Source: Vibrio spartinae (GTDB lineage: Bacteria > Pseudomonadota > Gammaproteobacteria > Enterobacterales > Vibrionaceae). From it: a stretch of DNA of 64,000 nt. A model generated the notes under the pieces. The model was not told the DNA's origin and did no database searches. It saw nothing but the letters and a program-made list of their open reading frames with translations. Positions 1,885 to 22,147 of the stretch are shown here, in pieces. The stretch lies in NCBI RefSeq assembly GCF_024347135.1, contig NZ_AP024907.1:921001-985000 (forward strand), written 5' to 3'. Position 1 is the first letter of the stretch. The number at the start of each line of letters is the position of its first letter. The translations under genes were made by a program, and so were the position numbers.

Positions 1885-1942
1885 TATTCTCTTCCTTTTC
1901 AAGTCATTGTTGTTCGTGTTTGTGAATTCAATCTGAATGCGT

Positions 1943-5233: not shown

Positions 5234-5262
5234 CCCCACAATATTGGCAGCGCTGACCAAGG

Positions 5263-5546: not shown

Positions 5547-6204
5547 TTGGCCGAAAAGACTCGTTGTTCCTGTCATGAAATTGCAAATACCTCGATGATG
5601 ATTATAGCGGTGACAGATTTAAAACCTGAGTATTATGTTTCGTTGTGGGGGCTGTGGTGGTGCGGCTGTACAAAATATTCTGATGGGGGATAAATTTAAG
5701 CCGATATTGGGAATGCTGCCGAGAGTCCAGGAGCTTGGTGTTATATCTGTCGGTACTCCGAAAGAATGTTCTGTCTGACCGATAGAATGAATCCCCCAAA
5801 TCAATACTGTTTTGAGTGGCAGGGTTTGGAAGGGAAACCGATACCATAATTTTAGGAAATAGACATCATCGTGAAGTGTTTCAGGATCTGAGAAGATAAA
5901 ATAAATCCCTATCCCCCCTAATACCAGTCAGTTTATCGATGGAATTCAACTCATCAGAATATGTGAACGTATCATCTAAAGATATAAAAATAACTGTCAA
6001 CCGAGTATGAAAATATTCTGAACTGAATCATAGTCTTCCCTGTACTTTATTTATTATAAGCTGCCTCTGAATTATGAAAATCACATTTCTAATTTATATA
6101 GTTGATTAAGCTCTATTGTTAAAGTAAGATTAATTCAATCAGTTGCTGTGCAACAATGTTTATTTGTGTTGATTTTTATGTTTTGAAAATTTCTTACATC
6201 CCTA
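5547..6204. other. AT-rich intergenic stretch without a convincing gene
   Basis: No supported gene. One 47-codon frame at 5635-5778 (+) begins MFRCGGCGGAAVQ and is unusually Cys/Gly-rich at its start, but no ribosome site precedes it and I cannot assign it. Composition shifts here from normal to strongly AT-rich, marking the left boundary of the acquired region. The promoter of the following operon probably lies near 6120-6200, but I could not fix -35/-10 boxes. Confidence 0.4.
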
Positions 6205-6240
6205 GGATTTTGGAGCCTGTAATCCATGGGCGGTAGCATG
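6205..6240 (+). promoter_or_regulatory. JUMPstart/ops element (RfaH recruitment site)
   Basis: Bases 6229-6240 read GGCGGTAGCATG, matching the ops core GGCGGTAG with the GC..GC bases that form the non-template hairpin recognised by RfaH. The preceding sequence (TTTGGAGCCTGTAATCCAT) resembles the 5' half of the enterobacterial JUMPstart element. Orientation is the same as the 15 genes that follow. In E. coli this element recruits RfaH to pausing RNA polymerase and suppresses polarity in long LPS, capsule and haemolysin operons. Position about 365 bases before the first gene fits a long leader. Confidence 0.8.
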
Positions 6241-6520
6241 TTTTTTGGTGTATTACCCTATCAATAGAGATATTTTGATACAAAATACATTTCTCATTTC
6301 AGACGACTCGATGCTTCATGAATTATGATAGATAACTCATCACCACAAGTATAACTGCTTTTATTCCAGTCGATGGAATCAAGTTTATCAGAGTATTTTC
6401 TAAAAGAATTTTATAGAGAAAAATATCAGTAAAATTCTTGTGTTCCTAAATGAAAATAAATTTATAGTTCCTTCTCCAGAAATGGAAGAAGTATTATTAA
6501 TTTGACATAGATAAAATTTA

Positions 6521-6549
6521 AACAACTAAAAATATAGAGTTGTTTTTAT
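6521..6549 (+). terminator. Terminator-like hairpin in the operon leader
   Basis: AACAACT (6521-6527) pairs with AGTTGTT (6538-6544), followed by TTTATT. It lies between the ops element and the first gene, 56 bases before the start codon, where an antitermination complex recruited at ops would have to read through. Weak stem, so function is inferred. Confidence 0.4.
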
Positions 6550-6604
6550 TTGCCAATTGCATATTGATAACATATTGATACCAAATTAATGAGGAGGATT
6601 AAAT

Positions 6605-7459
6605 ATGAAAATGAACATAATAAATAAAGAAAAAATTCGCTATATTTTTAGTCGTATAAAAAGGAAAGGTGTTCTAAATACAGTTAGTGGTATAAATAGA
6701 AAATATATTAAATCAAAATCTATAGAGTATTTTTTATCTAAACGAATAAGTAATAATCTGGATATTCCTTATTTCCCTAAAATTTTACAAATAGAAACCA
6801 GAAGTGGTTGTAACTATTCCTGCTCATTTTGTCCCACAAATAAAGTCAAAATGAAACAAGGAAAAATGAAACAAGAATTATTTGATAAAATTATAGCACA
6901 GTTGAAACACTTTGATGGTTATATCAGTTTGTTTTTTAGAAATGAACCATTGATGGATAAGAGAATTATAGATTGGGCTCAAAAAATAAAAAATGAGACA
7001 AAGGCGAAAATAATTATTCAGACAAATGGTTCTCTATTAAATGAAGCAATGGCTCAGGAAATTAGTCAATATGCAGAACTAATTGTGAATGATTACACCG
7101 ATGATAAAGTTATTATTAATGAAATAGGTAAATGGGAGAATACTATTTCAGATAATTTAATATTTATAACACGAAATGACTATGAAAATCTGACAAATCG
7201 CGCTGGAAATATTGGCGGAAAAGAAAAAGTTTTTCTAAAAAACTCATGTGTTAAGCCATTTACTGAATTTACCATAACATTCAGTGGCACTGTCGTTTTG
7301 TGTTGTCAAGACTGGACAGAAGAAGCAATTATAGGAGATCTTAATCATCAAAGTATACTTGAGATATGGAATTCAAATAATTTAAATGAAATCAGAGAGC
7401 AATTAAAGAAAGGAAATAGAATTGGAATATGTGAATATTGTGATTTTGTTGGGGTATAG
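6605..7459 (+). CDS. Radical SAM/SPASM domain protein
   Basis: A 284-residue radical SAM enzyme. The 4Fe-4S motif is Cys69-x3-Cys73-x2-Cys76 in GCNYSCSFC, followed by the RNEPLMD loop and QTNGSLL strand of the barrel. The C-terminal third has the SPASM cysteine pattern (NSCVKPF, VLCCQDW, GDLN..SILEIW, GICEYCDF) that binds auxiliary clusters. SPASM enzymes modify peptides or oxidise amino-sugars (BtrN, NeoN). No precursor peptide is evident nearby, so a sugar or lipid substrate is as likely. ATG follows AGGAGG at 7 bases, the strongest ribosome site in the operon. First gene of the AT-rich cluster. Confidence 0.85.
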   Translation: MKMNIINKEKIRYIFSRIKRKGVLNTVSGINRKYIKSKSIEYFLSKRISNNLDIPYFPKILQIETRSGCNYSCSFCPTNKVKMKQGKMKQELFDKIIAQLKHFDGYISLFFRNEPLMDKRIIDWAQKIKNETKAKIIIQTNGSLLNEAMAQEISQYAELIVNDYTDDKVIINEIGKWENTISDNLIFITRNDYENLTNRAGNIGGKEKVFLKNSCVKPFTEFTITFSGTVVLCCQDWTEEAIIGDLNHQSILEIWNSNNLNEIREQLKKGNRIGICEYCDFVGV

Positions 7460-8599
7460 ATGATGAAAATATTTGATATAATACAAAGTCAGATATCCAA
7501 ATGTTATACAAGAGGTAATGACTGGAATATTTCTAATAGTAAAGATACATATTTTTACTTCAATAATGAAAATTATTACGAAGTTGAGTTGGATGAGTAC
7601 ATTCAATTGTCTTATATAAAAGATGTAGATAGTGTCATATTATTGCCGACACTATGGGAACGATGTGATAAATATGAAATATTGGAAGCAATTCAACGAG
7701 GGATTGAACAATGTCTAAAATTTAATTCTATATTAATGGTCAGTATTCAATCTGGAAGTAATTATAGATTAGACATTATTGATAGTGTTCAAAAACTATT
7801 AAGTGAAAACAAAATTTACAATAAATTAATATTATTTCTTACTGATGTCAGGAGTAAAGCATATTCAATTAATCAAACTGTACTTTTAGCAAGAAAAATA
7901 AATTGCTCAGCAGTTGGATGGATGGATGATGATGTAATTCTATCTGATGATGCATTTCTACATCTATATGAGGATCTTTGTCATAGAAATTTTATAGGAA
8001 GCTCTGGTGCATTGAAATTCCCAACGCCTAAAAAATATCCAACGTCAAAATTTTTAAATTTTGCTAAGAATAAAATGTCTACAAAGAAAACAAAATATCC
8101 GCATGGCTGCTGTATGATGGTTGGCCTCTCATCAATAAAAAATTTGATTCCTGCTAGATATATCTGTGATGATGGGTTTTTCTTTTTTGAATTATTGGAT
8201 ATGAGATTAGACAATCCCCAAAATAATATGAAGATAGTGGAACAATCTACATGCCAACATTATGTTGGGGGAAATATAAAAGATACATATTTTCGTATAC
8301 GTAGATCAATTATTAGTACTCTTATCTATTGTGCTGATTATTCATCAGATAAGTCTTTATATTATTTGAAGGAAATTCAGTTTAAGGGACTATTTCCTAA
8401 TATGCTCATCAAGAGTTCTGTTAAAGATAAGATTATAAAAAGTATACTTAAATTTATATTTTTAATATGGCACATAATTATATTAATTGAACTGTTTTTC
8501 AGAAGAGTTTCGGGAAATCCATTAAGAGAGATCGCATGGTCTGCATACTCGTGGGAAAAAACAGAAAGTTTGAAAAAAAAGAGTTCTTTATTTGATTGA
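7460..8599 (+). CDS. GT-A-type glycosyltransferase (GT2-like)
   Basis: A 379-residue protein whose ATG directly abuts the stop of the radical SAM gene, implying translational coupling. The middle contains a nucleotide-sugar binding strand ending in GWMDDDVIL, the D-x-D type metal site of GT-A enzymes, then an acceptor region (PHGCCMMVGL, CDDGFFFFELLD) resembling the ED/DD catalytic segment of GT2 proteins. The C-terminus has one hydrophobic helix (about residues 320-350), suggesting membrane attachment. The first 100 residues are not recognisable. Donor and acceptor are unknown. Confidence 0.65.
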   Translation: MMKIFDIIQSQISKCYTRGNDWNISNSKDTYFYFNNENYYEVELDEYIQLSYIKDVDSVILLPTLWERCDKYEILEAIQRGIEQCLKFNSILMVSIQSGSNYRLDIIDSVQKLLSENKIYNKLILFLTDVRSKAYSINQTVLLARKINCSAVGWMDDDVILSDDAFLHLYEDLCHRNFIGSSGALKFPTPKKYPTSKFLNFAKNKMSTKKTKYPHGCCMMVGLSSIKNLIPARYICDDGFFFFELLDMRLDNPQNNMKIVEQSTCQHYVGGNIKDTYFRIRRSIISTLIYCADYSSDKSLYYLKEIQFKGLFPNMLIKSSVKDKIIKSILKFIFLIWHIIILIELFFRRVSGNPLREIAWSAYSWEKTESLKKKSSLFD

Positions 8600-8654
8600 T
8601 AAATAATTTTATTAAACCAGTTCACTAAATTAACAACGTAAAAAAGAGTTTGCT

Positions 8655-9398
8655 ATGGATGTTTACAAACATATGTCTTCATGTAGGAAGTCAATAATTC
8701 CTATTATAGATCCATTTAAGTTTGATAATAGAATAAATATAGATAGACTACTGACTTTTCAGAAATATGCTCCTTTCTGTATAGTCGCTAGTACGGATTG
8801 TGAAAACTTTGAAATGAAAGTATCTCCCTTTATTGCTGCCGTATCAAAGATAAAAACTATCCCTATTATAACGCATTTCCCTCCTCAGAAACCAAAAGGC
8901 TTTCCCTCATCACCTCATGCAGATGCATTTTTGGCTACATCAGTAATAAATTCTAATATGGAATACTATAGTTCTTTATCATTAGAGAGAGAGTCGATCA
9001 AGCAGAGTGTTCAAAACTATGGTGACAACGGCTTCATTAGCTCTGCTGCTTTAGTTTTAGGCGATGATGAAAAATCTCAAAAGTTTGTACAATCAAAGAC
9101 TGTAGAGCACTCTAAAGAAAGCATTTCCAGAACACTAGAGGGTATAGATTTTGATCCATTAAATGTTTTTTACTTATACTCAAGAAATAGTGTTATTTCT
9201 AATGAAATATGTAGTTTTGTTAAATCGATTGTTGGTGATAGAACTCTATTATTTGTTAGCGGAGGGATATCAAATACTGAGCAAGCAAACAGCCTACTAT
9301 ATTCTGGTGCTGATTTTATTTCAATTGGAACTGCATTTGAAGACGTAAATTGGAATAATAATGCAATGAATATATTAAATAAAGAAAGAGTTTATTAA
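8655..9398 (+). CDS. PcrB/GGGP-synthase-like prenyltransferase (TIM barrel)
   Basis: 247 residues aligning along their length with bacterial PcrB and archaeal geranylgeranylglyceryl phosphate synthases: IDPFKFD near the N-terminus, ADAFLATSVINS in the middle, FYLYSRNS, then LFVSGGISNTEQA and GADFISIGTAFED at the phosphate-binding end. The family joins a prenyl diphosphate to a glycerol phosphate (or 3-phosphoglycerate in MoeO5 of moenomycin) by an ether bond. The conserved YLEYSG stretch is changed, with the acidic residue apparently missing, so specificity may differ. The next gene encodes IPP isomerase, which strongly supports an isoprenoid substrate. Vibrios do not normally need such an enzyme. 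Confidence 0.75.
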   Translation: MDVYKHMSSCRKSIIPIIDPFKFDNRINIDRLLTFQKYAPFCIVASTDCENFEMKVSPFIAAVSKIKTIPIITHFPPQKPKGFPSSPHADAFLATSVINSNMEYYSSLSLERESIKQSVQNYGDNGFISSAALVLGDDEKSQKFVQSKTVEHSKESISRTLEGIDFDPLNVFYLYSRNSVISNEICSFVKSIVGDRTLLFVSGGISNTEQANSLLYSGADFISIGTAFEDVNWNNNAMNILNKERVY

Positions 9399-9412
9399 AG
9401 GGGAACTATAAT

Positions 9413-9967
9413 ATGGATGATGTAATTTTAGTCGACGAGAATGATAATATAATTAGAAATATCAATAAATTAGATGCTCATTTAAGTGGTGATTATCTCC
9501 ATCGTGCCTTTTCCTGTTTTATTATTAATTCAAATAATGAGGTGTATATCCAGAAGAGAGCACAGAATAAACTACTTTGGCCAGGATATTGGTCTAACTC
9601 ATATTGTAGTCACCCAAGACCAAATGAAGACATTTCTCATGCTGTGTTAAGACGAGCGGAAGAAGAGCTTGGTATTGTAACTAATGAAGAGCCAATTTTT
9701 TTATATAAATTCCAGTATAAAGAAAAATATGAAGATATAGGGTATGAGCATGAATTATGCCATGTATTCATTGTTTTTACGGACACATTACCAAGAGAAA
9801 ATCCTGAAGAAGTATCTGCTGGATTATTTATTAAAATTGAATGTATTCAAGAATATATAAATAATAATAAATATTTGTGTACACCTTGGTTCAGAAAAGA
9901 ATGGGAAGAAATATTACAGAATCACTCTGATAAATTATTTCAACCTTCATGTGAATGTTCTAGTTAA
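9413..9967 (+). CDS. idi: Isopentenyl-diphosphate delta-isomerase, type 1
   Basis: A 184-residue Nudix-fold IPP isomerase interconverting IPP and DMAPP. Motifs are intact: HRAFSCFII, the RAQNKLLWPGYW segment, the catalytic-Cys motif SYCSHP, the Nudix-like RRAEEELGI and the metal-site glutamates in YEHELCHVF. Length matches the family. It begins 14 bases after the prenyltransferase gene with an AAGGGGA ribosome site. MEP-pathway bacteria make both IPP and DMAPP, so a dedicated copy inside this cluster suggests extra demand for prenyl primer by the neighbouring prenyltransferase. Confidence 0.93.
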   Translation: MDDVILVDENDNIIRNINKLDAHLSGDYLHRAFSCFIINSNNEVYIQKRAQNKLLWPGYWSNSYCSHPRPNEDISHAVLRRAEEELGIVTNEEPIFLYKFQYKEKYEDIGYEHELCHVFIVFTDTLPRENPEEVSAGLFIKIECIQEYINNNKYLCTPWFRKEWEEILQNHSDKLFQPSCECSS

Positions 9968-10069
9968 AGCATACGATGATTTCACATAATACGATATGTC
10001 ATCTATTTTGATGTTTTTCATAAAGGTACATCATTGTTTTAATGATGTGATCAATCAGGTTTTGAAATA

Positions 10070-11449
10070 ATGAATACTATTTGGAATGAAAAAAATAAAA
10101 TTTTCAATGATCTTAATCAATTACATGGAGTTTGTGTTTATATTGATGAAGAATATTTGTCAACATTTTGTACAAACTTTGGCGGAATGTATTCAACACC
10201 ACCACTTGCTGTCATTTGTGTAAAACGTTTAGATTCAATCACTGATATTATTCACTATTGTAATATAAATGAGATACCAATAAATATACGCGGTGTCGGA
10301 CATTCTTTTGGTACACAATCACTTTCTAAGGGGATTGTATTAGTAGTATCAGTTGAAAAACCAGTATTTGAACAAGTTGATGAACGTAAATTTAAAGTAT
10401 CAGCTTTTGAAACATGGCTGTCTATTGAATACTTTTTGAGAAAAAAAGGTTTATCATTTCCTATCTTGACTAGGCATCCTGATACGACTGTTGGAGGAAC
10501 ACTTACTGTTGGTGGATATGGAGAAGATTCATATTTATACGGGAGTCAAGCTTCATGCATTCAATCGTATACACTCTTAACCCCTGATGGGAAAAAGCAT
10601 CACTGTTCAGAAAATTCAAACTCCGAGCTTTATAACTTTGGACTCGTATCATTAGGAATACTTGGTATTATCGAAGATGTTACTTTTGAAGCTATACCAT
10701 TGAGATTGAAAAATATACTTTATGTGATAGAGTTTGATGGAATTCTCCACCTGCTAATTTTTTTGATACTTATATCAGAATATTCCAATCTGAATATAGA
10801 AGCAATGACATGTCAATTATATCAAGGGCGATACTATGTCAATATGATTCTTAGCAATGATTCTGAACAGATAAATATCATTAATAAAGTTTTAGAATAC
10901 GAAGTGGTAGGATGCATTTGCTATAAATATCATTTGGTAAGTGATTATAGAGGAAGAACATTTGGGACCTACAGAGATGACCTCTGGAATAGAGATAATG
11001 TCAATCTTTGGGGAGACTATTGTGTTGATCAAAATAATGTTATATCTTTTGCCGATTTTCTATTGAATAAAGTAATTAACAATGATGTTTTCATCAAGAA
11101 CAAAGGTCGGCTTCTTATAATTTTAAAGAAAAGCCCGGATTTAAGTAAATTTTTTCCTTTCGAACCTATATCAAAAGATATGAGTGGGATTGTTTTTGGG
11201 TTTGGCGTTTATTTTACGATTCCAAAGAATGTAACTAAAGAATACGAAAAAATTAAACAACTACATAGAGAAATATTAGAAATGTGTATTCTAAATGGAG
11301 GTCGTCCTTATCTTGCTGGATGGCATGAAATGAGTTATGAAGATAAATTAAAAACATATGGGTTAGATTATATAAAAATATTGGATCTCAAAAATAAATT
11401 AGACCCTAAAGGAATTGTAAATAATTATGACTTTTTTACAGAACATTAG
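10070..11449 (+). CDS. FAD-linked (PCMH-type) oxidoreductase
   Basis: A 459-residue flavoprotein of the VAO/berberine-bridge/aldonolactone oxidase superfamily. The FAD domain is clear: RGVGHSFGTQSL (His candidate for covalent flavin attachment), TVGGTLTVGGYGEDSYLYG, and LGILGIIEDVTFE. The C-terminus ends in LDPKGIVNNYDFF as in cytokinin- and sugar-alcohol-type oxidases. Members oxidise sugars, sugar alcohols, lactones or alkaloids. Here a sugar or polyol in the assembled molecule is a sensible substrate, but that is inference. A 102-base spacer before it contains an 8-bp inverted repeat (ACATCATT/AATGATGT at 10028-10048), possibly an RNA hairpin. Confidence 0.8.
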   Translation: MNTIWNEKNKIFNDLNQLHGVCVYIDEEYLSTFCTNFGGMYSTPPLAVICVKRLDSITDIIHYCNINEIPINIRGVGHSFGTQSLSKGIVLVVSVEKPVFEQVDERKFKVSAFETWLSIEYFLRKKGLSFPILTRHPDTTVGGTLTVGGYGEDSYLYGSQASCIQSYTLLTPDGKKHHCSENSNSELYNFGLVSLGILGIIEDVTFEAIPLRLKNILYVIEFDGILHLLIFLILISEYSNLNIEAMTCQLYQGRYYVNMILSNDSEQINIINKVLEYEVVGCICYKYHLVSDYRGRTFGTYRDDLWNRDNVNLWGDYCVDQNNVISFADFLLNKVINNDVFIKNKGRLLIILKKSPDLSKFFPFEPISKDMSGIVFGFGVYFTIPKNVTKEYEKIKQLHREILEMCILNGGRPYLAGWHEMSYEDKLKTYGLDYIKILDLKNKLDPKGIVNNYDFFTEH

Positions 11450-11556
11450 TTACATCGTATGTATTCGGTTGGATAGATAGTTAAAATTATTTGAATATAT
11501 ATTAAATCTAATCACATGAATATATTTGTTTGATGTAATTGTTTGAGGTTATATCA

Positions 11557-12693
11557 ATGATTTACTGTGGAGAAATTAATTTAATGAAGAATATATTGAT
11601 CATTTGCATGAAAACATGGGGGCGAATGGGAAATTATGAAGCAGCAAAGAAGATTAAATTTGAGCTAGCCAGCAAGGGAATTTTTTCTACAGAACTAGTC
11701 TGTTTTGATGAGTTAGTACCTACATTCAGAGAATTTGGATTAAAGATGCAAGAGATTGCTGCAAGTTACCATGAACCTCATATAAAAATGAAGCTGTATG
11801 ATGAACTGATAGATAGCATAGATTTGTGGATTAGTGATGATAACAATGAGAGGATAGTGAATGAATTATTATTTTGTATTATTAAAAAGGATATGCCATC
11901 ATTAATTATTTCAACGAAAGGTATTATTTCTAGAGTTATTTATGTGTTAAAAGAAAAATTCAATTTTAATTACAAAACTGTGAATTTTATAACTAACCCA
12001 GGTCTATTAGATATTAGAATACATCGACACTTCAGTAGTGACTTAACAATTAGAACTACAGATTATTACCCGAATCATGATATAATTAAAAAATTTAATA
12101 AACTGAAAACAGTTCCATTATTCAAGGAAATTCCAAATTATCAAATAAAAAAGCAGGGTGTACCATCTATTTTGATTCTCTGCAATGGGTGTGAAGAAGG
12201 CTACTTCGATGTATTAAAAACTTCGTTAGAACACCCATCGAGACCTAAGGTAATCATGGTTATTATTTCAAATGAAAAATTTCTTGATAAATGTATAGAA
12301 TTAAATAAAAGACATGAAAATAGAGCTCATATTTATAATGCACTAGCTAATAAGGATTATCTAAAGATAGCACTAGAGGCTTCAACAAACAATCGTTCAT
12401 TCTTATACTCTAAATCAGGCCCGAACACAGTTCTGGAATCAATTAGATTCAATTTACCTGTTTTAGTACATTTCTCCGGTTTACCAATGGAAAGATGGGT
12501 AGTTGAGTTAATAAATAAAAGAAAATTTGGCTATTGTTTTGACAGTCAATCTCATGGCGCTGAGTTCATCAAACGGTGGTTGGATAATCCTGAGATCATA
12601 ACTAAATTTAAATATAATATAGAATCAAGTAAAGTTAATGATATGGATATAACGCTGAAAGATTTACCTGATATAATTTATGATGTTATATAA
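11557..12693 (+). CDS. GT-B glycosyltransferase resembling GT28 (MGDG synthase/MurG-like)
   Basis: About 378 residues with a GT-B layout: an N-terminal Rossmann start (NILIICMKTWGRMGNYEAA) and a C-terminal donor site, SKSGPNTVLESIRFNLPVLV, closely matching the GPGT..EA motif of MGDG synthases and MurG. Such enzymes add a hexose to a membrane lipid acceptor, which fits a lipid-linked product of the PcrB-like enzyme. ATG 11557 follows GAGG at 8 bases and is preferred; ATG 11584 would start right at the Rossmann strand. Confidence 0.7.
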   Translation: MIYCGEINLMKNILIICMKTWGRMGNYEAAKKIKFELASKGIFSTELVCFDELVPTFREFGLKMQEIAASYHEPHIKMKLYDELIDSIDLWISDDNNERIVNELLFCIIKKDMPSLIISTKGIISRVIYVLKEKFNFNYKTVNFITNPGLLDIRIHRHFSSDLTIRTTDYYPNHDIIKKFNKLKTVPLFKEIPNYQIKKQGVPSILILCNGCEEGYFDVLKTSLEHPSRPKVIMVIISNEKFLDKCIELNKRHENRAHIYNALANKDYLKIALEASTNNRSFLYSKSGPNTVLESIRFNLPVLVHFSGLPMERWVVELINKRKFGYCFDSQSHGAEFIKRWLDNPEIITKFKYNIESSKVNDMDITLKDLPDIIYDVI

Positions 12694-12714
12694 TGAATGT
12701 TAAGGAAGTGTTTA

Positions 12715-13329
12715 ATGTTAAAAATGAAAAAATTTCCTATGATAACTGTATTTATAATATGTGTGACGATTTTTTATTCTACATTCGTTTCATATTCATT
12801 AACGAACAGCTTTATCGGTAAAGTAAGCATTGTAGATCTAGAGCAGTATGGAGGGTTAACTCCCAACAGATTATATGATCTTGAGTATTGGCGATTTCTG
12901 GTTTCTCAGCTTATACATGTTAAGCAGATGCATATGCTCTACAATGTATTATCATTTTTTATACTAGGTCTTGTACTAGAAAAGCATGTTGGTTCTAAAT
13001 TTTTATTCATTTTATGGTTTACATCTGGTGCTTTGGGAACACTTTATAGCACTAATTTTGTTAGTTATCCTTGGAATATTGGTACGGGAGCATCACAGGC
13101 TATTTTAGGTGTATCTTCCTTTGCATTATTGTTAGTTTGTATAAAAGAAAATACTTCTATAATATTAAAATTATCTGTCTTTTTTTCTATGATACCGGCT
13201 ATTGCTTTAGATCTAATTTATGCTCACTATCCTAAGCCAGGACATATCCTTTCTATTTGTATCGGTCTTATAATGAGTCTGGTATTCTATAGAAAAAATA
13301 GATCTTATTTTGATAATGTTAAGATTTGA
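12715..13329 (+). CDS. Rhomboid-family intramembrane serine protease
   Basis: About 204 residues and six predicted membrane helices. The rhomboid core is present: WRFLVSQLIHVKQMHMLYN (the HxxxxN-like loop helix), GASQAILG containing the catalytic Ser of the GxSx(A/G) motif, and a His in the last helix (PKPGHILS). Start at 12715 follows AGGAAG at 6 bases. Rhomboids cleave single-pass membrane proteins. A rhomboid inside a glycosyltransferase/exporter operon is unusual; it could process an accessory protein such as the HlyD-like adaptor, but nothing in the sequence shows this. Confidence 0.82.
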   Translation: MLKMKKFPMITVFIICVTIFYSTFVSYSLTNSFIGKVSIVDLEQYGGLTPNRLYDLEYWRFLVSQLIHVKQMHMLYNVLSFFILGLVLEKHVGSKFLFILWFTSGALGTLYSTNFVSYPWNIGTGASQAILGVSSFALLLVCIKENTSIILKLSVFFSMIPAIALDLIYAHYPKPGHILSICIGLIMSLVFYRKNRSYFDNVKI

Positions 13330-13415
13330 AAGTAATAGTTATCTAAAAATGAGTATAATAATGTGATTGTTCTTGATTGATACACTTGTGATAAAAATTA
13401 GAGAAAGGACTTTTT

Positions 13416-14627
13416 GTGCGTAATATAATTTTTTTTCTTGAGGAATATCCAGTCTTAACACAAACTTTCGTTCATCAACAGATTGTTAGTTTGAAAAAAG
13501 AAGGGTTTAACATAAAAGTTGTATCCATTTGCAAATCTAACACTGATGATTATACTATTCCTTATGTTTGTCTGGAAGATATAAATAACATTCACTCTAT
13601 ATATGCAATATTTAAATTTATTTATTTCTCTATAATATCGGGTCATTTTTTTTCTCGAATTAATTTGTTTAAAAAAAATTGTTACCGTAAACGCTTGTTC
13701 TTTAAATTTTTATCTAACCCACCACTGATAAAACCGACTGATATAGTTATAAGTCATTTTGGTATGGCTAGTATTATGGCCGCACAATTGAAAAAGTATG
13801 GATATATAAAGAATACTTTATATAGTGTATTACATGCATATGAAATTACAAAAGAAAAAAGCCTTGATGATTTGGGAGATCACTACGGAATTCTATTTGA
13901 GCAAGCAAATAGAATTTTTTCAGTTTGTGAACATATGCGTAATCGGATTATCGATTTGGGATGCAATTCTACTCGTGTAGAGGTACTACATCTGGGAGTC
14001 GATATTGATGCACTCTCGTGTTTAGATGTAAATGTGTCTAATCAAGAAAAAATGAAAATTATTTTTGTTGGTCGTTTAACAGAAAAAAAAGGATTACCTG
14101 ATTTATTACTATCTCTAGCACGGCTAAATGGTGAGGTGTCATTTACTTTAGATATTATAGGTGGTGGTGAATTAAGTGAGTACTGTCATGATTTAATATT
14201 AAAGCTTCATTTAAATGAGCATGTAAAAATGCATGGTTTTCAACCTCATCACATAGTTTTAGATTTTATGAAAAATGCAGATGTTTTAATCCTTCCGTCC
14301 AAAACATCTGATGCTGGTGATATGGAAGGTATACCGGTGGTATTAATGGAAGCGATGGCTATGAAAAAAATAGTACTCTCTACCTATCATAGTGGAATTA
14401 CTGAATTGATTGAAAATAATGTCAATGGGATTCTTGTCAATGAAGGAGATGTTATCGATTTATCAAAAAAAATATTATATATAAGTAAGTTGAGCAAAGA
14501 TAAGAAAGATATTATTGGAATGAACGCCAATCAAAAAATAATGAATGAATTCAATATTAAATTTCAGGCTAAATGTTTAGCTAACATTATACTTAATGAT
14601 GACGTTTATGAAGGGGTAAATAAATGA
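13416..14627 (+). CDS. GT4 family glycosyltransferase
   Basis: 403 residues of a GT-B, GT4-type enzyme. N-terminus NIIFFLEEYPVLTQTFVHQQ resembles WcaL/AmsK-type exopolysaccharide transferases; the donor half has FVGRLTEKKGLPDLL and EGIPVVLMEAMAM, the E-x7-E motif of retaining GT4 enzymes. Start is GTG with AAAGGA upstream. Its last four bases overlap the next gene (ATGA), so the two are coupled. Specific linkage is unknown. Confidence 0.87.
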   Translation: MRNIIFFLEEYPVLTQTFVHQQIVSLKKEGFNIKVVSICKSNTDDYTIPYVCLEDINNIHSIYAIFKFIYFSIISGHFFSRINLFKKNCYRKRLFFKFLSNPPLIKPTDIVISHFGMASIMAAQLKKYGYIKNTLYSVLHAYEITKEKSLDDLGDHYGILFEQANRIFSVCEHMRNRIIDLGCNSTRVEVLHLGVDIDALSCLDVNVSNQEKMKIIFVGRLTEKKGLPDLLLSLARLNGEVSFTLDIIGGGELSEYCHDLILKLHLNEHVKMHGFQPHHIVLDFMKNADVLILPSKTSDAGDMEGIPVVLMEAMAMKKIVLSTYHSGITELIENNVNGILVNEGDVIDLSKKILYISKLSKDKKDIIGMNANQKIMNEFNIKFQAKCLANIILNDDVYEGVNK

Positions 14628-15328
14628 AATGTGACATTGTTTTTATATCTTATGATGAACCATGTGCTGAATCTAATTGGATGCATTTGAAAAAAAGATT
14701 TCCTGACACCAAAAGAGTTCACGGTGTTAATGGTATTTTAAAATCGCATAAAGTTGCTTCTGAGACTGTAACCACAGAGTGGTTTTTTGTTGTTGATGGA
14801 GATAATAAAGTTAGAGATGATTTTAATTTTGATCTACCAGTAGAACCGTTATGTTCAACTGCGACTTATGTATGGAGAAGTGTTAACTCCGTTAATGGTT
14901 TATGTTATGGGAATGGCGGTGTAAAATTATTTAATAAAAAACTGTTCCAGGGAGTTAAACACTTTTCTGGAGATATGACTATCTCCCTTAGTCCTGATTA
15001 TCGTATAGTCAATGTTGTTGCTTCAGATACAGTCATTAACACAAGTAATTTTCATTCTTGGAGAGCTGCTTTTCGAGAATGTATAAAGCTTAGTATACCA
15101 AGGAAAAATCTTAAAGATGATATTATCCGTAAAGAAAGATTAACAGCATGGAGTTTGATTGATACTCATATAGATTTTGGCGATTGGATATCAATAGGAG
15201 CGATAGATGCGGCTCATTTCTATCAAGAGAATATCGATAATATAGATTTCATGTTATCGATGATTAATGATTTTAAATGGTTAAGAGATACCTTTAATTT
15301 AAAATATGTTCATAAAAATAATATATAA
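14624..15328 (+). CDS. GT-A-like protein of uncertain family
   Basis: 234 residues, overlapping the GT4 gene by 4 bases. It begins CDIVFISYDEPCAESNW, has RVHGVNGILKSHKVA, then WFFVVDGDNKV, a D-x-D metal site in a GT-A context, and YGNGGVKLFNKK. Comparable short proteins with the VDxDN and GxGGVKLF motifs occur in phages and secondary loci as putative glycosyltransferases. I call it glycosyltransferase-like and cannot give a substrate. Confidence 0.55.
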   Translation: MKCDIVFISYDEPCAESNWMHLKKRFPDTKRVHGVNGILKSHKVASETVTTEWFFVVDGDNKVRDDFNFDLPVEPLCSTATYVWRSVNSVNGLCYGNGGVKLFNKKLFQGVKHFSGDMTISLSPDYRIVNVVASDTVINTSNFHSWRAAFRECIKLSIPRKNLKDDIIRKERLTAWSLIDTHIDFGDWISIGAIDAAHFYQENIDNIDFMLSMINDFKWLRDTFNLKYVHKNNI

Positions 15329-15365
15329 TAATTCTACTATAGTTAAACGTATCAGGAGGTGATGG

Positions 15366-16259
15366 ATGTTACATAAAGTAGCCATTCTTATTCCCACGTA
15401 TAAACGTAGTTCATCATTATTGCGTTTATTAAAATCCATTGAAAAATTAGAATCATCAAATTCTTATACTGTAATTGTGGCTGATAATGATTTTTATCAA
15501 CAAGAATCTTTTAATATGATCAATAAAATAAAAAGTGATTTTAATTTTCATGTTGATATAATTGTTGTTGAAAATAAAAATATCTCCTTAGTCAGAAATA
15601 TGTTGTTAACTTTAGCCTTCGAAAAATATCACTGTGATGCAGTTGCTATGATTGATGACGATGAGGTTGTTAGTTCCAGATGGTTAGATACACTAATTAA
15701 ATGCCAAATACAAACCGATGCTGATGTAATACAAGGTAATACTCAACCCATTTTCTTAGATAAAAAAAGGAAATGGATGGAAAAAGTCTCATTTTATTAC
15801 AGAGACTTATTATTATCAAATACAGAAGAAATAAATGTCAGTACTTGTAATGTTTTTATTGTACGTCGGGTATATGAATCGATGAAAGATCAGCTATTTG
15901 ACTTAAGTTTTGGTCTTATTGGTGGAGAGGATACAGATTTTTTCCATCGAGCTAAAAGAATGGGGATTAGTTACTTCTATTGTAGTGATGCATTGGCCTA
16001 TGAATTCTACGATAAAAAACGTGCAAATATTATTTGGGTATTGAAAAGAAGTTTTAGAGTAGGGAGAACAAACTATAGAATATTTAGTAATAATAATCCA
16101 GCTAAGCTATGGAGTACTATTTTCATTCTTCCATTTACTATTGTGAGGCTTGGTATTTTCTTTTGGTATCCCAAACTGTACATACATTACCTAATTAAAA
16201 TGTTTCGCCAGATCGGAATTATATTTGAAGGCGTTCGTTATAGTTTAAATCATAGATGA
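15366..16259 (+). CDS. GT2 family glycosyltransferase
   Basis: A 297-residue GT2 enzyme: VAILIPTYKRSSSLLRLLKS at the N-terminus, the metal-site MIDDDEVVSSRW, and a GGEDTDFFHRA segment equivalent to the ED catalytic motif. The C-terminal 70 residues contain two hydrophobic stretches and basic residues, suggesting membrane association. A very strong ribosome site (AGGAGG) precedes it. Donor and acceptor unknown. Confidence 0.88.
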   Translation: MLHKVAILIPTYKRSSSLLRLLKSIEKLESSNSYTVIVADNDFYQQESFNMINKIKSDFNFHVDIIVVENKNISLVRNMLLTLAFEKYHCDAVAMIDDDEVVSSRWLDTLIKCQIQTDADVIQGNTQPIFLDKKRKWMEKVSFYYRDLLLSNTEEINVSTCNVFIVRRVYESMKDQLFDLSFGLIGGEDTDFFHRAKRMGISYFYCSDALAYEFYDKKRANIIWVLKRSFRVGRTNYRIFSNNNPAKLWSTIFILPFTIVRLGIFFWYPKLYIHYLIKMFRQIGIIFEGVRYSLNHR

Positions 16260-16280
16260 TTATTTAAATGAGTAGTTAAT

Positions 16281-17090
16281 ATGAGTAGGATTTCTGTACT
16301 AATTCCCCATTATAATCAACCTATACTTATTATCGGTGCTATTGAGTCTATAATGAGAACCTGCTTGAGTGATGTACAGGTTTTAGTTGCTGATGATCAT
16401 TCATCAGAAGATAACTATATACAGCTTCGGTATGCTTTAGAATATTTAATAAGGAAGAATGGTCTAAACATAAGGTTGTTTAGGAGTGATAAAAATGTTG
16501 GAACTTATCGATTGAAGAATGATATAATTAATAAAATAGATACTGAATTTATAAGTTTTCATGATGCAGATGACTATTCTGTACCAATGAGGTTAGATTA
16601 TCTGTATACTCTTATGAGTAAAAATAATTCCATTGATATAATGGGCTCTTCATATATGGACTTCTATCAAAATCTTCATACAGCCAACACATTTCGCATT
16701 AAGAAGTTTTATAGAATTCCTTTTATAGCACATCAACTTGGTAAGAAGTACCTAAGTTTTCAGCCTTCTCAATTAATTAGATTTAGTATATTCCGCATTC
16801 TCGGTGGATTTGATGGTACAACCAGAATTGCTGCTGATGATGATTTTTTACTTAGAGCTATTCATTGTGTGAAAGTCAGAAATATTAACCGTCCCCTCTA
16901 TATCAAGGTAGAAAGGGAAAGTTCTTTGACTACATCGTCTGCTACTGGATTTCAATCAGAAGTTAGATTGAATTATATAGAAAAATTAGACCAATTACGA
17001 AATACAATAAAAATTAATTTGCCATTATCAGAGTATATGAACAAACCCAACGATGTTCCATTTAATCTGAACGAAATAGATTTAACATGA
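16281..17090 (+). CDS. GT2 family glycosyltransferase
   Basis: A 269-residue GT2 enzyme: ISVLIPHYNQPILIIGAIES, VLVADDHSSEDN, the FHDADDYSVPMR metal site and ADDDFLLRAIH near the catalytic base. It has no obvious membrane helices and is likely peripheral. It starts 22 bases after the previous GT2 gene and continues the run of transferases, implying that the product carries several sugars. Confidence 0.87.
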   Translation: MSRISVLIPHYNQPILIIGAIESIMRTCLSDVQVLVADDHSSEDNYIQLRYALEYLIRKNGLNIRLFRSDKNVGTYRLKNDIINKIDTEFISFHDADDYSVPMRLDYLYTLMSKNNSIDIMGSSYMDFYQNLHTANTFRIKKFYRIPFIAHQLGKKYLSFQPSQLIRFSIFRILGGFDGTTRIAADDDFLLRAIHCVKVRNINRPLYIKVERESSLTTSSATGFQSEVRLNYIEKLDQLRNTIKINLPLSEYMNKPNDVPFNLNEIDLT

Positions 17091-17173
17091 CTGAAGTATT
17101 TTGACATGAAAATAAAGAGGTATTCAGTTGAAGATTTTTATATTTTTGTAACGGATACTTTAAGTGAGATAAT

Positions 17174-17920
17174 ATGATTAATATTAAAGAATGCTTGAAT
17201 GATGTTGTAGAAAAATTGAAGGAAGAAGAAAAAACATTATCTATTCTTGGATATGGTTCATATTTTATGGGTAACTATAAAAGTGGCAGCAGTGACATTG
17301 ATTTGCTTATCATACATGAACGTGAGATTGACTTATTTAGAAAGAAGATCTTTTATCATAATGTAGAGTTTGAACTTCGATATATGGCAGAAAATTCTCT
17401 AGTAAAGCTTTTATCTCATAAGCATGGGCCTACAATAAAGCATATGCTGGATTCAGAGATTATTTTTGATAGTAAAGGTAGAGCAAGAAATTTAAAAAAT
17501 AAAGCCTATTCTATAGTTGATTCACCTATTGTAGATACATTCTCTATAGAAAGTCGAAGGAAAAGTGCACTGCTCATTGAAAATCTATATCGGAAAGTAT
17601 ATCAAGTGAAAGATGATCTTGGATTTTTCGAGTTTGCATGTTCTAAATTTTTGCTCAATATTGCAGATTCTTATATTAGAGTTCATCGTCATTGGGGGCT
17701 GCAAGGTTTCCGCCAAATAATTTTCCAGCTCAAAGATATTGATGAAAATTTTGCTGATCATTTCTCACGAGCAATGAGCCCTAATCATATAGATATAAGA
17801 CTTGATAATATCGATTATCTTTATAGAGAAGTTATTATGCTTCTCGGTGGTGAAACAAACGCTGACGAAAATTTTGTGAGTCACGGGATTATGAATATAT
17901 TAAATATAGTTGAAAACTAA
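17174..17920 (+). CDS. Nucleotidyltransferase-fold protein
   Basis: 248 residues. The N-terminus carries the polymerase-beta-type nucleotidyltransferase motif GYGSYFMGNYKSGSSDIDLL, with Gly28-Ser29 and metal-binding Asp41/Asp43; FELRYM may supply the third carboxylate. The remainder is helical and HEPN/KNTase-like without recognisable motifs. Relatives adenylylate antibiotics, proteins or RNA. Within a biosynthetic operon it could tailor or inactivate the product (self-resistance), or serve a toxin-antitoxin-like role. Only the fold is secure. Confidence 0.7.
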   Translation: MINIKECLNDVVEKLKEEEKTLSILGYGSYFMGNYKSGSSDIDLLIIHEREIDLFRKKIFYHNVEFELRYMAENSLVKLLSHKHGPTIKHMLDSEIIFDSKGRARNLKNKAYSIVDSPIVDTFSIESRRKSALLIENLYRKVYQVKDDLGFFEFACSKFLLNIADSYIRVHRHWGLQGFRQIIFQLKDIDENFADHFSRAMSPNHIDIRLDNIDYLYREVIMLLGGETNADENFVSHGIMNILNIVEN

Positions 17921-18033
17921 AAATTATATTCATTTGAAATATAGTATGTTTTGATTGTATTTCCTAATTGGGTAATAATCTAACTTGTTATTTCATTTTT
18001 TGAAACTTATATTAATATTATTCAGGAATTAGT

Positions 18034-19698
18034 ATGAAGATAGATGTAGGATTGAAAGGCAACTTTGCATCAGGTTATATAAAGTCCTTGTTGTTATACT
18101 CTCTACTATTAAGTATCATTAGTTCATTTTCTGCATTTTTCATGCAATATCTGATCGATGCAGTTATACCATCTGGTGACTTGCGGTTTTTATTTATATT
18201 TATGGTATCTTATTTGTTATATGAATCGTTTAATATAATATTAAATTATTTGACTGCTCGATTTAGAGCATCTCTAGAAAAGTATTTAGATTATTACTAT
18301 CTGGATAAATATTTACTAACTCTGATTGCTACGAATCTGTCTATATTAAATAATTATAATAAAGGTGGATTGATTCAACGAATTTATGATGCTCAGAATA
18401 TTAAAAATTATCATTTAACGCTCTTAATCGATATTGTTGTTAAAGTTATTACAATCCTAATATTATCACTCATAGTTTTATTTATTAGTCCTCTAGTTGT
18501 CATCTTTTTAATTTTGGGAATGATGATGCTGGTGACTGTCTACTTTTTGTCCGCTAAGAAAATGGTCCTTTTAGAAGAACAACGATTTAAAATAAAATCA
18601 AATTTTCTTTCAATTATGGATGATATCATTGGAGGAAGAGAAACAATACGAGGCAATAATTATAGAAACAAAATTCTGAATAGATGTATTGATAAGATGA
18701 GTGATTTCTTAAATAGAGAGAAAAATGTTGCTTTGCTTGTCGCTGGTGTGAAAAGTAAAACTCTGACCATAAATACAATCATTGGTATTGTTATTCGATG
18801 CGTTATGGTTATTAGTATTATTCAATATAGCAGTTTCTCTCTCGGTGTAATGCTGACATTAATTACTTTTACAGAAATATCTTTAAAGCATACGATGCAG
18901 ATTTTGGTTTCCTTTATGGAGTTGAAAAGATCAAGTATTACTCTTGAACGATATAAAGAATTTATGAGTAATAATGTTGTCGATGAGAATTTATTAGGAA
19001 ATGAACTGGATGATAATATAACGGTTATAGATAAAATTACAGTGAAGAATCTCCAGATTGGTACGAATGGAAATGTCATTTGTAAAATTCCAGATATTAC
19101 ATTCAAAACTAATCATATATATAAAATAATAGGACCGAATGGTATTGGAAAAACGACTTTGTGTAAAACCTTGATTGGTTTAATTCCTCCTGTGAATGGT
19201 GTTGTTAGTTTTTATATCTCTGATAAAAATATTAACCCTGATATTCATATCAATCAGTGCTCAGCATATTTTCCACAAGATATACTCTTTACAACGAGTA
19301 TTGTTGAAAATATCACATTAGGAAGAGAGATCGGTAGGGATAAAATTGAAATTATGCTTAAAAATCTAAACCTGTGGCAGTCAATAGATTGTCTTCCTGA
19401 GAAGCTGGATACAATGATTAGTGATAAGGTCAATCCTTTTTCTGAAGGGCAAAGGCAGATATTACTGTTCTTGAGGGGATATTTATCAGATAAGTCGGTG
19501 TTAATATTTGATGAAATATTTAGAGGTATCGATAATAAAATTGCCAAAACAGTGAGTAAATTGATTTCAGAAAAAAGAGACTGTATCATATTTTATGTTG
19601 CTCATGACTTTACTATTGATTGTGAAAATCATGAGGTACTAGAGTTAAAAAATGAGAATAGCAATGATATTATCAAGCTAGAGGCTTTCAATGAGTAA
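18034..19698 (+). CDS. ABC-type exporter, fused membrane and ATPase domains
   Basis: A 554-residue half-transporter of the type I exporter class. About six membrane helices occupy residues 15-290; the ATPase has Walker A GPNGIGKT (367-374), signature FSEGQ (469-473, a variant of LSGGQ), Walker B LIFDE (Asp493-Glu494) and H-loop His524. There is no N-terminal C39 peptidase, so it does not cleave a double-glycine leader. Its stop overlaps the start of the HlyD-like gene, an arrangement of ABC/adaptor pairs in secretion systems. Substrate is inferred to be the product of this operon. Confidence 0.9.
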   Translation: MKIDVGLKGNFASGYIKSLLLYSLLLSIISSFSAFFMQYLIDAVIPSGDLRFLFIFMVSYLLYESFNIILNYLTARFRASLEKYLDYYYLDKYLLTLIATNLSILNNYNKGGLIQRIYDAQNIKNYHLTLLIDIVVKVITILILSLIVLFISPLVVIFLILGMMMLVTVYFLSAKKMVLLEEQRFKIKSNFLSIMDDIIGGRETIRGNNYRNKILNRCIDKMSDFLNREKNVALLVAGVKSKTLTINTIIGIVIRCVMVISIIQYSSFSLGVMLTLITFTEISLKHTMQILVSFMELKRSSITLERYKEFMSNNVVDENLLGNELDDNITVIDKITVKNLQIGTNGNVICKIPDITFKTNHIYKIIGPNGIGKTTLCKTLIGLIPPVNGVVSFYISDKNINPDIHINQCSAYFPQDILFTTSIVENITLGREIGRDKIEIMLKNLNLWQSIDCLPEKLDTMISDKVNPFSEGQRQILLFLRGYLSDKSVLIFDEIFRGIDNKIAKTVSKLISEKRDCIIFYVAHDFTIDCENHEVLELKNENSNDIIKLEAFNE

Positions 19699-20905
19699 GT
19701 TAAACTCTAATAGTGACGTTAAGTCAGAGTTGCATAAAGAGTATAAACTGATTATAAATATAACAATTGTTTTGTTGATAATATGCTTTGTTTTATCTTT
19801 TTTTGTGACAATTAAGAGAAGAGTTGTTTTAGAGGATGCTTTTATTAAGACAGCACCTGAGCCCGTGTTATTTTATGCGGAAAAAGATATAGATATTAAA
19901 AGTTATAAAGTTCGTGATGGTGATGTGGTTAGAAATGGGGATTCTATTTATAATGCAATTAATCCAGATTTAGAAGAGGCTGAATCTCTTTTATTACAAC
20001 AAATAAAACGGGATAAAACAAAAATAAATGCATTAAATGAATATATTAGTAATATCTATGAAAAAATGAATATTGAAAAGAATTATGAGGAGTTTAGGTT
20101 TAATAAAAATAAGATTGAATTGAAAAACATTGACTCTATTTTGAAAGAGCATAGAGATGACTATGATTTTTTTAGTAAAGGATATAAAGAGCAGATGAAC
20201 TTTGTAGACAATGTTTCAAATCAAAGTAATAATTATTTGTCTATAAAGGATATTATTAAGTATAAAATAGAACTATTCGCTTCACGTAGTGATTTGATTG
20301 ACCTTCAATCTGATATATTAAATTTAGAGAAAAGAAAATTTCTCTTAGATGATGAGCAGAATCGATATACTATTGGGGCAACTAAATATAAAGAGTTAGA
20401 TATAGAGATTAATCAGATAAAAGGTGATCTAGCGGTTCTTATCTCAGAATTAAATGTAAAAAAAACACGAATGGATAATATAAGAAGTAGTAAGTTGAGA
20501 ATAGAAGGTGTTGCAAAGTCTGGCGGTAAGATTGAATTTAATAATATCAATGGAATCAGGCCGAAGCAGGTAAAAAAGGGGGAGTTAATTTTTACGATAT
20601 ATCCTGAAGGGAATCATTTTATAGCAAAAGGCGTTGTTAGTGAAAAGTATATTAGAAAAATAAAAATTGGACAAAACGTAGAGTTGAAAATGGATGCCTA
20701 TGATTATCTCAAGTATGGCGCAATAAAAGGAAAGGTTGAAGCTGTATTTGGTGTAAAAAATGGTAGGTCTGAAATTGTAATAAATATTATTGATAAGAGA
20801 GATTTTGATTTGGAGTTCGGTAATTCTATCAAGGCATTTATAATCTTGAATGAAGTTAATTTGTATGAATATTTATATGAAATACTGTTTCCATACATTG
20901 CTTAA
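19691..20905 (+). CDS. HlyD-family membrane-fusion (periplasmic adaptor) protein
   Basis: 404 residues: short cytoplasmic N-terminus, one membrane helix (about 20-42), a beta strand pair (VRDGDVVRNGDSIY, the lipoyl half), a long coiled-coil hairpin (about 95-270), the second lipoyl half and a C-terminal beta-barrel (GQNVELKMDAYDYLKYG). This is the layout of HlyD-type adaptors that bridge an inner-membrane ABC exporter to an outer-membrane channel. It overlaps the ABC gene by 8 bases. No TolC-like gene is in the window; the chromosomal TolC would serve. Confidence 0.87.
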   Translation: MSKLNSNSDVKSELHKEYKLIINITIVLLIICFVLSFFVTIKRRVVLEDAFIKTAPEPVLFYAEKDIDIKSYKVRDGDVVRNGDSIYNAINPDLEEAESLLLQQIKRDKTKINALNEYISNIYEKMNIEKNYEEFRFNKNKIELKNIDSILKEHRDDYDFFSKGYKEQMNFVDNVSNQSNNYLSIKDIIKYKIELFASRSDLIDLQSDILNLEKRKFLLDDEQNRYTIGATKYKELDIEINQIKGDLAVLISELNVKKTRMDNIRSSKLRIEGVAKSGGKIEFNNINGIRPKQVKKGELIFTIYPEGNHFIAKGVVSEKYIRKIKIGQNVELKMDAYDYLKYGAIKGKVEAVFGVKNGRSEIVINIIDKRDFDLEFGNSIKAFIILNEVNLYEYLYEILFPYIA

Positions 20906-20978
20906 AAGTCTTGATTTTATATGTCATTATTAAGGTGTTTCGTTGAAAAAGTTTTTCTAAAAGTGTTTTGGTATCAGT

Positions 20979-21839
20979 ATGAAAAAGTTATTTATGAGGC
21001 ATGCGGTGAGTTCATTAAATTGCATGAAATATTATTTATCTTCAAGAAAGTTTTTCTTATTTATTCGAAATAGAATAATTTTTCTCTATCATGCAATGGA
21101 TCCAGATTATAATAAGTTGAAAGATATTTTTGATAGCGGAGAACTAGTCGTTATTCCTGCGGGATTTCGATGCTATACAAAAATGAGAATATTTAAGGAA
21201 TTAGGTTTAAAACAAGCAAGTCTTCCCTTTGATAGCGGTTTCTTCTCCTCTTATGCTGTTGCCGAAGTTTTAAAAAGTAGAAAAGTTTTTCTTAATTATC
21301 CTGAAGAGTATGATGAGACTCACTGTGTATGTATTAAAGATGGTAACTATCAAGATGAAAAATTTGGAAGAGGTATTAAGTTTCAGACTTCAAGTTATAC
21401 AGAGATCAACGAATTAGTAAAAGATCGAAATCAGGATGATATTGAATGTTATTTAGATACTACTTATGGGTTTTATACTCTCGATAAAAAACATAAATTT
21501 GTTTTGGCACACTATAACTGGCATCCATTCGCAAGTCAGGATAAAAGTCAGGGGATCTATGATATATCACTCAATCTTAAGTCAATTAATCGTACTATAA
21601 ATAATAGGATAGAAAGAATGTTTGATATGTGTAACAAAGCAAGGTATGTGGTGTTTACTATCGATAAGTTACAGAATTGTCATCATATGACCATTGATAA
21701 TGAAGTATTTGATTTGAATGATTTAGAACCAATCATTAATGCAGCACAGGATTCTTTTGGAAGTAAGTGTTTTGTTGTGCATTTTTCTGAAATCAACTCA
21801 CCATCTAAATTATTGAAGTTAATTCATAATCAGACGTGA
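20979..21839 (+). CDS. DUF1796-type putative papain-like cysteine peptidase
   Basis: 286 residues. VVIPAGFRCYTKMRIFKELG followed by LPFDSGF matches the DUF1796 pattern (a Cys after a short strand, then PFDW/PFDS), with Cys65 the candidate nucleophile and FVLAHYNWHPF offering a His. Members occur in glycan and secondary-metabolite loci, with no proven activity that I can name. The first 40 residues are basic with a weakly hydrophobic stretch. Last intact gene of the AT-rich operon. Confidence 0.6.
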   Translation: MKKLFMRHAVSSLNCMKYYLSSRKFFLFIRNRIIFLYHAMDPDYNKLKDIFDSGELVVIPAGFRCYTKMRIFKELGLKQASLPFDSGFFSSYAVAEVLKSRKVFLNYPEEYDETHCVCIKDGNYQDEKFGRGIKFQTSSYTEINELVKDRNQDDIECYLDTTYGFYTLDKKHKFVLAHYNWHPFASQDKSQGIYDISLNLKSINRTINNRIERMFDMCNKARYVVFTIDKLQNCHHMTIDNEVFDLNDLEPIINAAQDSFGSKCFVVHFSEINSPSKLLKLIHNQT

Positions 21840-22117: not shown

Positions 22118-22147
22118 CACTCAATTATGATTGAGTTGATTAACACG

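Follow-up and report, generated by a model that had tools for sequence, protein, structure and literature searches.

A stretch of 64,000 nucleotides of Vibrio spartinae (contig NZ_AP024907.1, positions 921,001 to 985,000; G000:C1:921001-985000), referred to below as the window, carries an AT-rich operon of 15 genes (g01 to g15; positions 6605-21839 of the window, + strand), which quite likely arrived by horizontal transfer and encodes a phosphoglycolipid pathway of moenomycin kind, fitted out for a Gram-negative cell. The genome comprises 5.19 Mb, with contigs of 4.00 and 1.19 Mb; this two-contig layout and the tmRNA tag fit Vibrio. By sequence comparison, four core genes of the operon, g03, g06, g02 and g11, correspond to those for MoeO5, MoeGT1, MoeGT4 and MoeGT3 of the moenomycin (moe) clusters of Streptomyces, and the product would probably be an undescribed moenomycin-like glycolipid. 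An antibiotic phosphoglycolipid was one of the products considered in the earlier note on this DNA; that reading is strengthened by the MoeO5-type enzyme, the three moe glycosyltransferase counterparts, the exporter and the isopentenyl-diphosphate isomerase (Idi) described below.

The list of open reading frames (ORFs) of the window gives 15 frames on the + strand, all of them open, with spacing between genes of -8 to 134 bases if g06 is started at ATG 11584. The GC content is 29.6% over 6605-21839 against 45.0% for positions 1-6000 plus 22201-64000, and it is comparable (30.5-32.4%) in three Photorhabdus copies of the operon. The tight or overlapping spacing on one strand and the AT-richness against the flanks, both claimed in the earlier note, are thus borne out. 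Import of the operon was apparently horizontal. An empty-site test on 21 genomes of relatives detected left-flank DNA in one of them only, over 30 bases. Directly 3' of g15 lies a short open stretch lacking a proper start (21880-22118, +), perhaps the remaining end of a gene lost at the island's edge.

The prenyltransferase g03 (8655..9398, +) passes the Pfam model PcrB (PF01884) with 37.7 against 23.9 bits, so that its description in the earlier note as a PcrB-like enzyme holds at the level of the superfamily; the PcrB/GGGPS type is not supported. All seven GGGP/PcrB models of NCBIfam that were matched gave scores below their cut-offs (best 51.3 bits against 247; TIGR01768, 48 against 113.25; TIGR01769, 35.4 against 161.55). 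The nearest solved relative is MoeO5 (3vk5; E 1.5e-25, residues 14-239), followed by heptaprenylglyceryl phosphate synthase at E 0.012, and the profile-profile comparison of g03 with MoeO5 gave 99.7%. Its sequence characterizes g03 as a prenyltransferase of MoeO5 type, not of PcrB/GGGPS type.

A profile search of the g03 family, in which the query included a MoeO5 fragment and the 7991 candidates with most shared words were scored, yielded 73 proteins. The top three are gammaproteobacterial (this window, Photorhabdus bodei and Brenneria tiliae); below them stand, among others, proteins whose names point to Streptomyces, Micromonospora and Actinoplanes. Database names for relatives of g03 include geranylgeranylglyceryl phosphate synthase. 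Of the 44 columns with 95% conservation or more across the 69 non-gammaproteobacterial rows, g03 retains 33, DPFK, STD, HFP and YLYSR included. Also present in g03 are the Tyr pair and the Gly204/Asn207 difference that PMC13096315 describes for the Photorhabdus protein plu3366. In a tree of the family (72 rows, a single short one of the 73 being left out) the three gammaproteobacterial proteins form a supported group of their own on a long branch, the placement of which is unsure, the tool having warned of long branches meeting there. With this reservation, the tree suggests an early split of the gammaproteobacterial MoeO5-type proteins from the actinobacterial ones. A recent transfer from Streptomyces was considered and rejected, since the gammaproteobacterial proteins form this separate long-branch group of unsure placement. 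The phylogeny in PMC13096315 places the Photorhabdus sequences instead within a clade with Actinoplanes and Actinomyces.

The second line of evidence comes from the glycosyltransferases g02 (7460..8599, +), g06 (11584..12693, +; a GT-B-type enzyme, the ORF of which opens with TTG 11539) and g11 (16281..17090, +; GT2 family). Pfam matches of g02 and g06 to glycosyltransferases are below threshold, and the assignment was made via moe counterparts as well. With A1 as query, the species-genome collection yielded 47 matching stretches and from these 15 loci, four in Photorhabdus and 11 in Streptomyces. Genes matched by g02, g06 and g11 were found in all 11 Streptomyces loci, and g13 weakly matched ABC genes in two. 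The specificity of these matches was tested by searching the whole genomes of all 11 moe-bearing Streptomyces at E 0.001. The sole match of g06 in each genome is one gene of the moe region, hit in two pieces (11/11). Exactly two matches per genome were obtained for g02, both within the moe cluster (11/11; E 7e-40 to 6e-44 and 1e-24 to 2e-20). For g11 a gene of the moe cluster was matched at E 5e-30 to 6.5e-36 in all 11, the ten other matches reaching 3.5e-7 at best.

The moe identity of the Streptomyces regions is based on MoeO5, on the Asn_synthase gene beside the GT1 gene and, in S. fumanus, on a B12-radical-SAM protein (MoeK5-like), an orphan protein, GT2-type proteins and an ABC gene. The gene matched by g06 adjoins the Asn_synthase gene, in the way that moeGT1 overlaps moeH5 according to PMC8778134; g06 is regarded as the counterpart of MoeGT1. 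The labels GT2 to GT5 of the moe glycosyltransferase genes are used here as we take them to be assigned. In moenomycin synthesis GT1 adds the first sugar, GT4 the second and GT3 the branching glucose, while GT5 and GT2 add the outer sugars.

Profile-profile comparison of the operon proteins with eight moe proteins gave 99.7% for g06 with GT1, 99.9% and 99.6% for g02 with GT4 and GT5, respectively, and 99.7% for g11 with GT3; besides the ABC ATPase domain of g13 (98.5%), every other pair reached 40% at most. The internal controls g08, g09 and g10 gave no moe match in this comparison, and E 0.17 or worse in tblastn against two moe regions. The likeness to moe clusters raised in the earlier note includes four corresponding core genes, with g02, g06 and g11 matched in 11/11 moe-bearing Streptomyces. 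For the eleven remaining genes the moe regions searched contain no orthologue, and no good tblastn match of the 15 genes to moe regions was obtained for MoeF5/H5 and MoeM5. A separate MoeGT5 counterpart was not found among the 15 genes, g02 matching GT5 more weakly than GT4. Neither was a counterpart of MoeGT2 (best probability 39.9% with g11 and 31.5% with g10, from 9 of 11 GT2 rows).

In the family to which the window belongs, two of the 296 genomes searched were matched, this one and G229; the match in G229 comprises 57 residues (E 2.5e-4) and is regarded as unrelated, so one of the 296 carries the operon. The sample of the class gave one of 369 genomes, again this one. Matches were obtained in four of 12 Photorhabdus genomes and in one of 394 from the order of Photorhabdus, the centre genome only, in a draw lacking other known carriers. 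Among 72,556 plasmid records three were matched, all of S. clavuligerus (MoeO5).

A search across genomes for the neighbourhood singled out in the earlier note showed prenyltransferase, Idi, glycosyltransferase and exporter genes to be co-conserved in Photorhabdus, contrary to the lack of co-conservation that would have refuted that note. P. bodei (L027), P. asymbiotica (L028) and a third Photorhabdus copy (L029, which ends within g14) have 14 of the 15 genes, arranged as in the window, with identities of 70-88% per aligned piece. The gene g15 was not found within 0.9 and 1.8 kb 3' of g14 in L027 and L028, respectively. For the 14 shared genes pN/pS between the window and Photorhabdus is 0.15-0.33 (g04, g06 and g07 were computed against L029), and these genes are under purifying selection. 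The copy in the window is the only fully open one among those examined. The genes in pieces are g12 and g13 in P. bodei, g06 in P. asymbiotica and in P. heterorhabditis (L003), and g11 and g13 in L029, each with an inserted ORF; in P. thracensis (L030-L032) parts of g02, g13 and g14 are left and g03 contains two internal stops. Some Photorhabdus genomes are drafts in which sequence errors are possible. The P. thracensis cluster is in advanced decay and L029 is split by ORFs, while sister species keep most frames open. Upstream of the P. bodei cluster lies a gene for an ankyrin-repeat protein (L027:1661-2248).

The operon is preceded by a JUMPstart/ops element (6214..6240, +), a likely site of RfaH recruitment, with an exact core GGCGGTAGCAT at 6229-6239. 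The bare 11-mer core shows no enrichment: the genome has 10 copies, as many as of the reversed control (10), and the window, with at most one mismatch, has 2 against 1.23 expected. Four of the ten genomic core sites, that of the operon included, have in common the long form CCA(A/T)GGGCGGTAGC(G/A)T. The other three lie 20-47 bases upstream of genes of polysaccharide type, namely a GDP-mannose-dehydratase-like gene, a Wzi capsule gene and a polysaccharide-type sugar transferase gene, whereas 365 bases separate the core from the first gene here. RfaH is encoded in the genome (196 bits against a cut-off of 144.5). The ops-like element of the earlier note was thus recovered in its exact and long forms, and on these grounds the RfaH-type control proposed there appears credible. 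In four Photorhabdus copies the 1.5-1.6 kb preceding g01 gave no ops-like match; consequently, the host lineage may have gained this control itself. Two further core sites of the genome (G000:C1:906709 and 909435) are 2.7 kb apart in nearly identical surrounding sequence.

The remaining genes could provide tailoring, precursor supply and export. Most domain labels of the earlier note were upheld (radical SAM/SPASM, PcrB, NUDIX/Idi, FAD_binding_4, rhomboid, glycosyltransferases, ABC and HlyD); DUF1796, assigned to g15 (20979..21839, +) from a reading of the sequence alone, has no Pfam support at E 0.1, so that g15 is at most a look-alike. The radical SAM/SPASM enzyme g01 (6605..7459, +) has BtrN as its only solved relative at E 0.001 (E 4e-22). 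BtrN is the radical-SAM dehydrogenase of butirosin biosynthesis, so this closeness suggests oxidation of a sugar alcohol by g01. Weak NCBIfam matches of g01 to peptide maturases are also present. A cluster for a ribosomally synthesized and post-translationally modified peptide, with g01 as maturase, was considered and rejected: no convincing precursor ORF occurs in the gaps examined, and the solved relatives are BtrN only.

The type I isopentenyl-diphosphate isomerase g04 (9413..9967, +) is a NUDIX protein above both isomerase cut-offs (NCBIfam 151.4 against 127 bits). The FAD-linked oxidase g05 (10070..11449, +; FAD_binding_4) groups by domain, model and structure matches with oxidases of the sugar-lactone, xylitol, DprE1 and cytokinin type. 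A rhomboid-family membrane protein (Pfam) is encoded by g07 (12697..13329, +). The GT4-family enzyme g08 (13416..14627, +; top NCBIfam match WcaL, below cut-off) and the GT2-family enzyme g10 (15366..16259, +; Pfam and NCBIfam), which lacks a moe orthologue, resemble exopolysaccharide glycosyltransferases in NCBIfam. The DGD-containing protein g09 (14624..15328, +), possibly a GT-A enzyme, has no family match in Pfam, and its structure model (mean pLDDT 41.0) is too poor to use; PDB sequence searches with g06, g09 and g15 gave nothing useful. The nucleotidyltransferase g12 (17174..17920, +; NTP_transf_2) gave an equally unusable model (mean pLDDT 43.6), and its PDB search returned matches to the major histocompatibility complex, taken as chance, and then a putative nucleotidyltransferase at E 0.051. 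The ABC exporter g13 (18034..19698, +), of bacteriocin/type-I-secretion type, resembles peptide-exporting ABC proteins across the membrane and ATPase parts and lacks the peptidase part. It is followed by the HlyD-type periplasmic adaptor g14 (19691..20905, +; Pfam and NCBIfam); the curated NCBIfam models for ABC (g13) and HlyD (g14) were matched below their cut-offs.

In the proposed pathway, Idi (g04) would supply the allylic diphosphate, and g03 could link a prenyl chain, farnesyl-like if the presumed donor is correct, by an ether bond to 3-phosphoglycerate. The first sugar could be added by g06, the second by g02 and the branching sugar by g11, by analogy with MoeGT1, MoeGT4 and MoeGT3. Then g08, g10 and perhaps g09 may lengthen or modify the glycan in a manner absent from moenomycin, while g01, g05 and g12 could tailor the sugars by oxidation and possibly nucleotidylation. 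Export across both membranes would be performed by g13 and g14 with an assumed TolC-type channel of the host; transport past the periplasm would keep the product away from the peptidoglycan polymerases in the periplasm of the producer itself. Transcription across the 15 kb would be sustained by RfaH recruited at ops. We infer the product, the export route, the action of RfaH and the inhibition of peptidoglycan glycosyltransferases from the gene content, and the biological activity appears to be the weakest step of the proposal.

Several points weigh against the moenomycin-kind reading. The phosphoglycolipid product is so far a prediction from the genes. No domain of a second prenyltransferase (MoeN5), of an Asn-synthase/amidotransferase or of a carbamoyltransferase was detected in the Pfam scans, a search limited to the 15 genes, and no MoeK5 orthologue was found by profile comparison (30.2% over 20 columns). 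A pathway lacking MoeN5 would give a farnesyl (C15) product, for which weaker activity is expected from analogue data: according to PMC13096315, the farnesyl analogue of moenomycin A is about 90 times weaker (minimum inhibitory concentration 8.0 against 0.09 ug/mL, S. aureus). The same paper contrasts Gly204, also present in g03, with the phosphate-contacting Asn230 of MoeO5. It also reports that plu3366, the MoeO5 homologue of Photorhabdus, failed to complement a moeO5 mutant; since moenomycin was not restored, the substrate of plu3366 may differ. The exporter g13 is of the peptide- or protein-exporting type, and g11 also resembles general polysaccharide glycosyltransferases (EpsE, 52 bits, against 107-125 bits to the moe gene). 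Every one of the five examined Photorhabdus copies has one or more genes in pieces, which makes the product look dispensable in that genus.

The operon could alternatively synthesize a surface or membrane glycolipid devoid of antibiotic function, in which a moe-type core anchors a surface oligosaccharide and RfaH co-regulates it with capsule and other glycans. The long ops form shared with the three polysaccharide-type loci and the exopolysaccharide-like g08 and g10 agree with this; an ABC and HlyD pair of the type-I-secretion kind suggests release instead, four core enzymes match an antibiotic pathway, and Pfam scans of the 15 genes (g09 and g15 being without family) revealed no Wzx/Wzy or ligase domain. 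Such a glycolipid is unlikely. A decaying, inactive island, to which the interrupted Photorhabdus copies and the single carrier among 296 family genomes (the weak 57-residue match aside) would point, is a good deal less probable, given 15 of 15 open frames in the window, the low pN/pS of the 14 shared genes and the presence of ops. The archaeal-like prenyl-glycerol ether glycolipid of a PcrB/GGGPS-type operon, also envisaged in the earlier note and favored by the PF01884 score over gathering and by the names of database relatives, is the least probable of all and found no support, as g03 is far nearer to MoeO5 than to any solved PcrB/GGGPS (best E 0.012), fails all seven NCBIfam models and is accompanied by three moe glycosyltransferases.

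Compared with known systems, the presumed moenomycin-kind operon shares with the moe cluster of Streptomyces viridosporus/ghanaensis and relatives the four core counterparts, and ABC transport genes occur in both. Unlike the moe cluster, it lacks among its 15 genes a MoeK5-like gene, an Asn-synthase-like gene and separate MoeGT5 or MoeGT2 genes; it has instead the BtrN-like radical SAM enzyme, the FAD oxidase, Idi, the rhomboid protein, the nucleotidyltransferase, extra glycosyltransferases and the HlyD adaptor, and it is a single AT-rich operon behind ops. It differs from the clusters of P. asymbiotica and P. bodei, with their 14 shared genes, in the long-form ops, the additional g15 and the intact frames. 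Similarity to the PcrB/GGGPS ether synthases within PF01884 is remote. The JUMPstart form is that of RfaH/ops polysaccharide operons, from which the operon differs in its phosphoglycolipid-pathway gene content and the greater distance from core to first gene.

Presumed moenomycin clusters of S. clavuligerus, Photorhabdus luminescens and P. asymbiotica were listed from genome mining in a 2019 review (PMC6804068), so moenomycin-type clusters in Gram-negative bacteria have been proposed in print before. In the literature searched, PMC13096315 is the only paper found that names plu3366, or MoeO5 together with Vibrio or Photorhabdus. It calls the plu3366 cluster obscure, only distantly related to moe and of unknown product, and groups Photorhabdus and Vibrio proteins in a sequence network; plu3366 presumably lies in the same cluster type as the operon. 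A gene-by-gene assignment of glycosyltransferases, a Vibrio-type operon, ops or the exporter logic was not found in this literature, in which the likeliest reviews were not covered. The kind is thus already known; the operon described here is an intact, differently equipped Gram-negative variant of it.

Elsewhere in the window, a Fic-domain protein is encoded at 46990-48384 (+). At 51756-53605 (-) a gene for a helix-turn-helix protein adjoins a HipA-like kinase gene in an AT-rich patch, which looks like a toxin-antitoxin pair of HipBA type. A transposase with an rve domain (54365-55189, -) lies about 0.5 kb from the tmRNA gene (55697-56062; tag ANDENYALAA), the surroundings of which are perhaps an insertion hot spot.

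According to PMC13096315, no compound other than moenomycin A is known to inhibit peptidoglycan glycosyltransferases directly at nanomolar concentrations. A Gram-negative lineage of moenomycin-type antibiotics, built on a prenyl-phosphoglycerate glycan with a keto or oxidized sugar and possibly a nucleotidyl group, and secreted under RfaH control by an ABC-HlyD-TolC route that spares the producer's own polymerases, can be proposed tentatively, the odds being somewhat against it. If this is true, the operon would represent new chemistry on a validated target from a distant Gram-negative branch, with another tailoring set and no MoeN5. It would also demonstrate by what means the synthesis and export of such a compound leave a Gram-negative producer unharmed. 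Versions of the cluster in Photorhabdus are in print without a product, and the all-open copy in a Vibrio-like host makes the question of the product directly testable.

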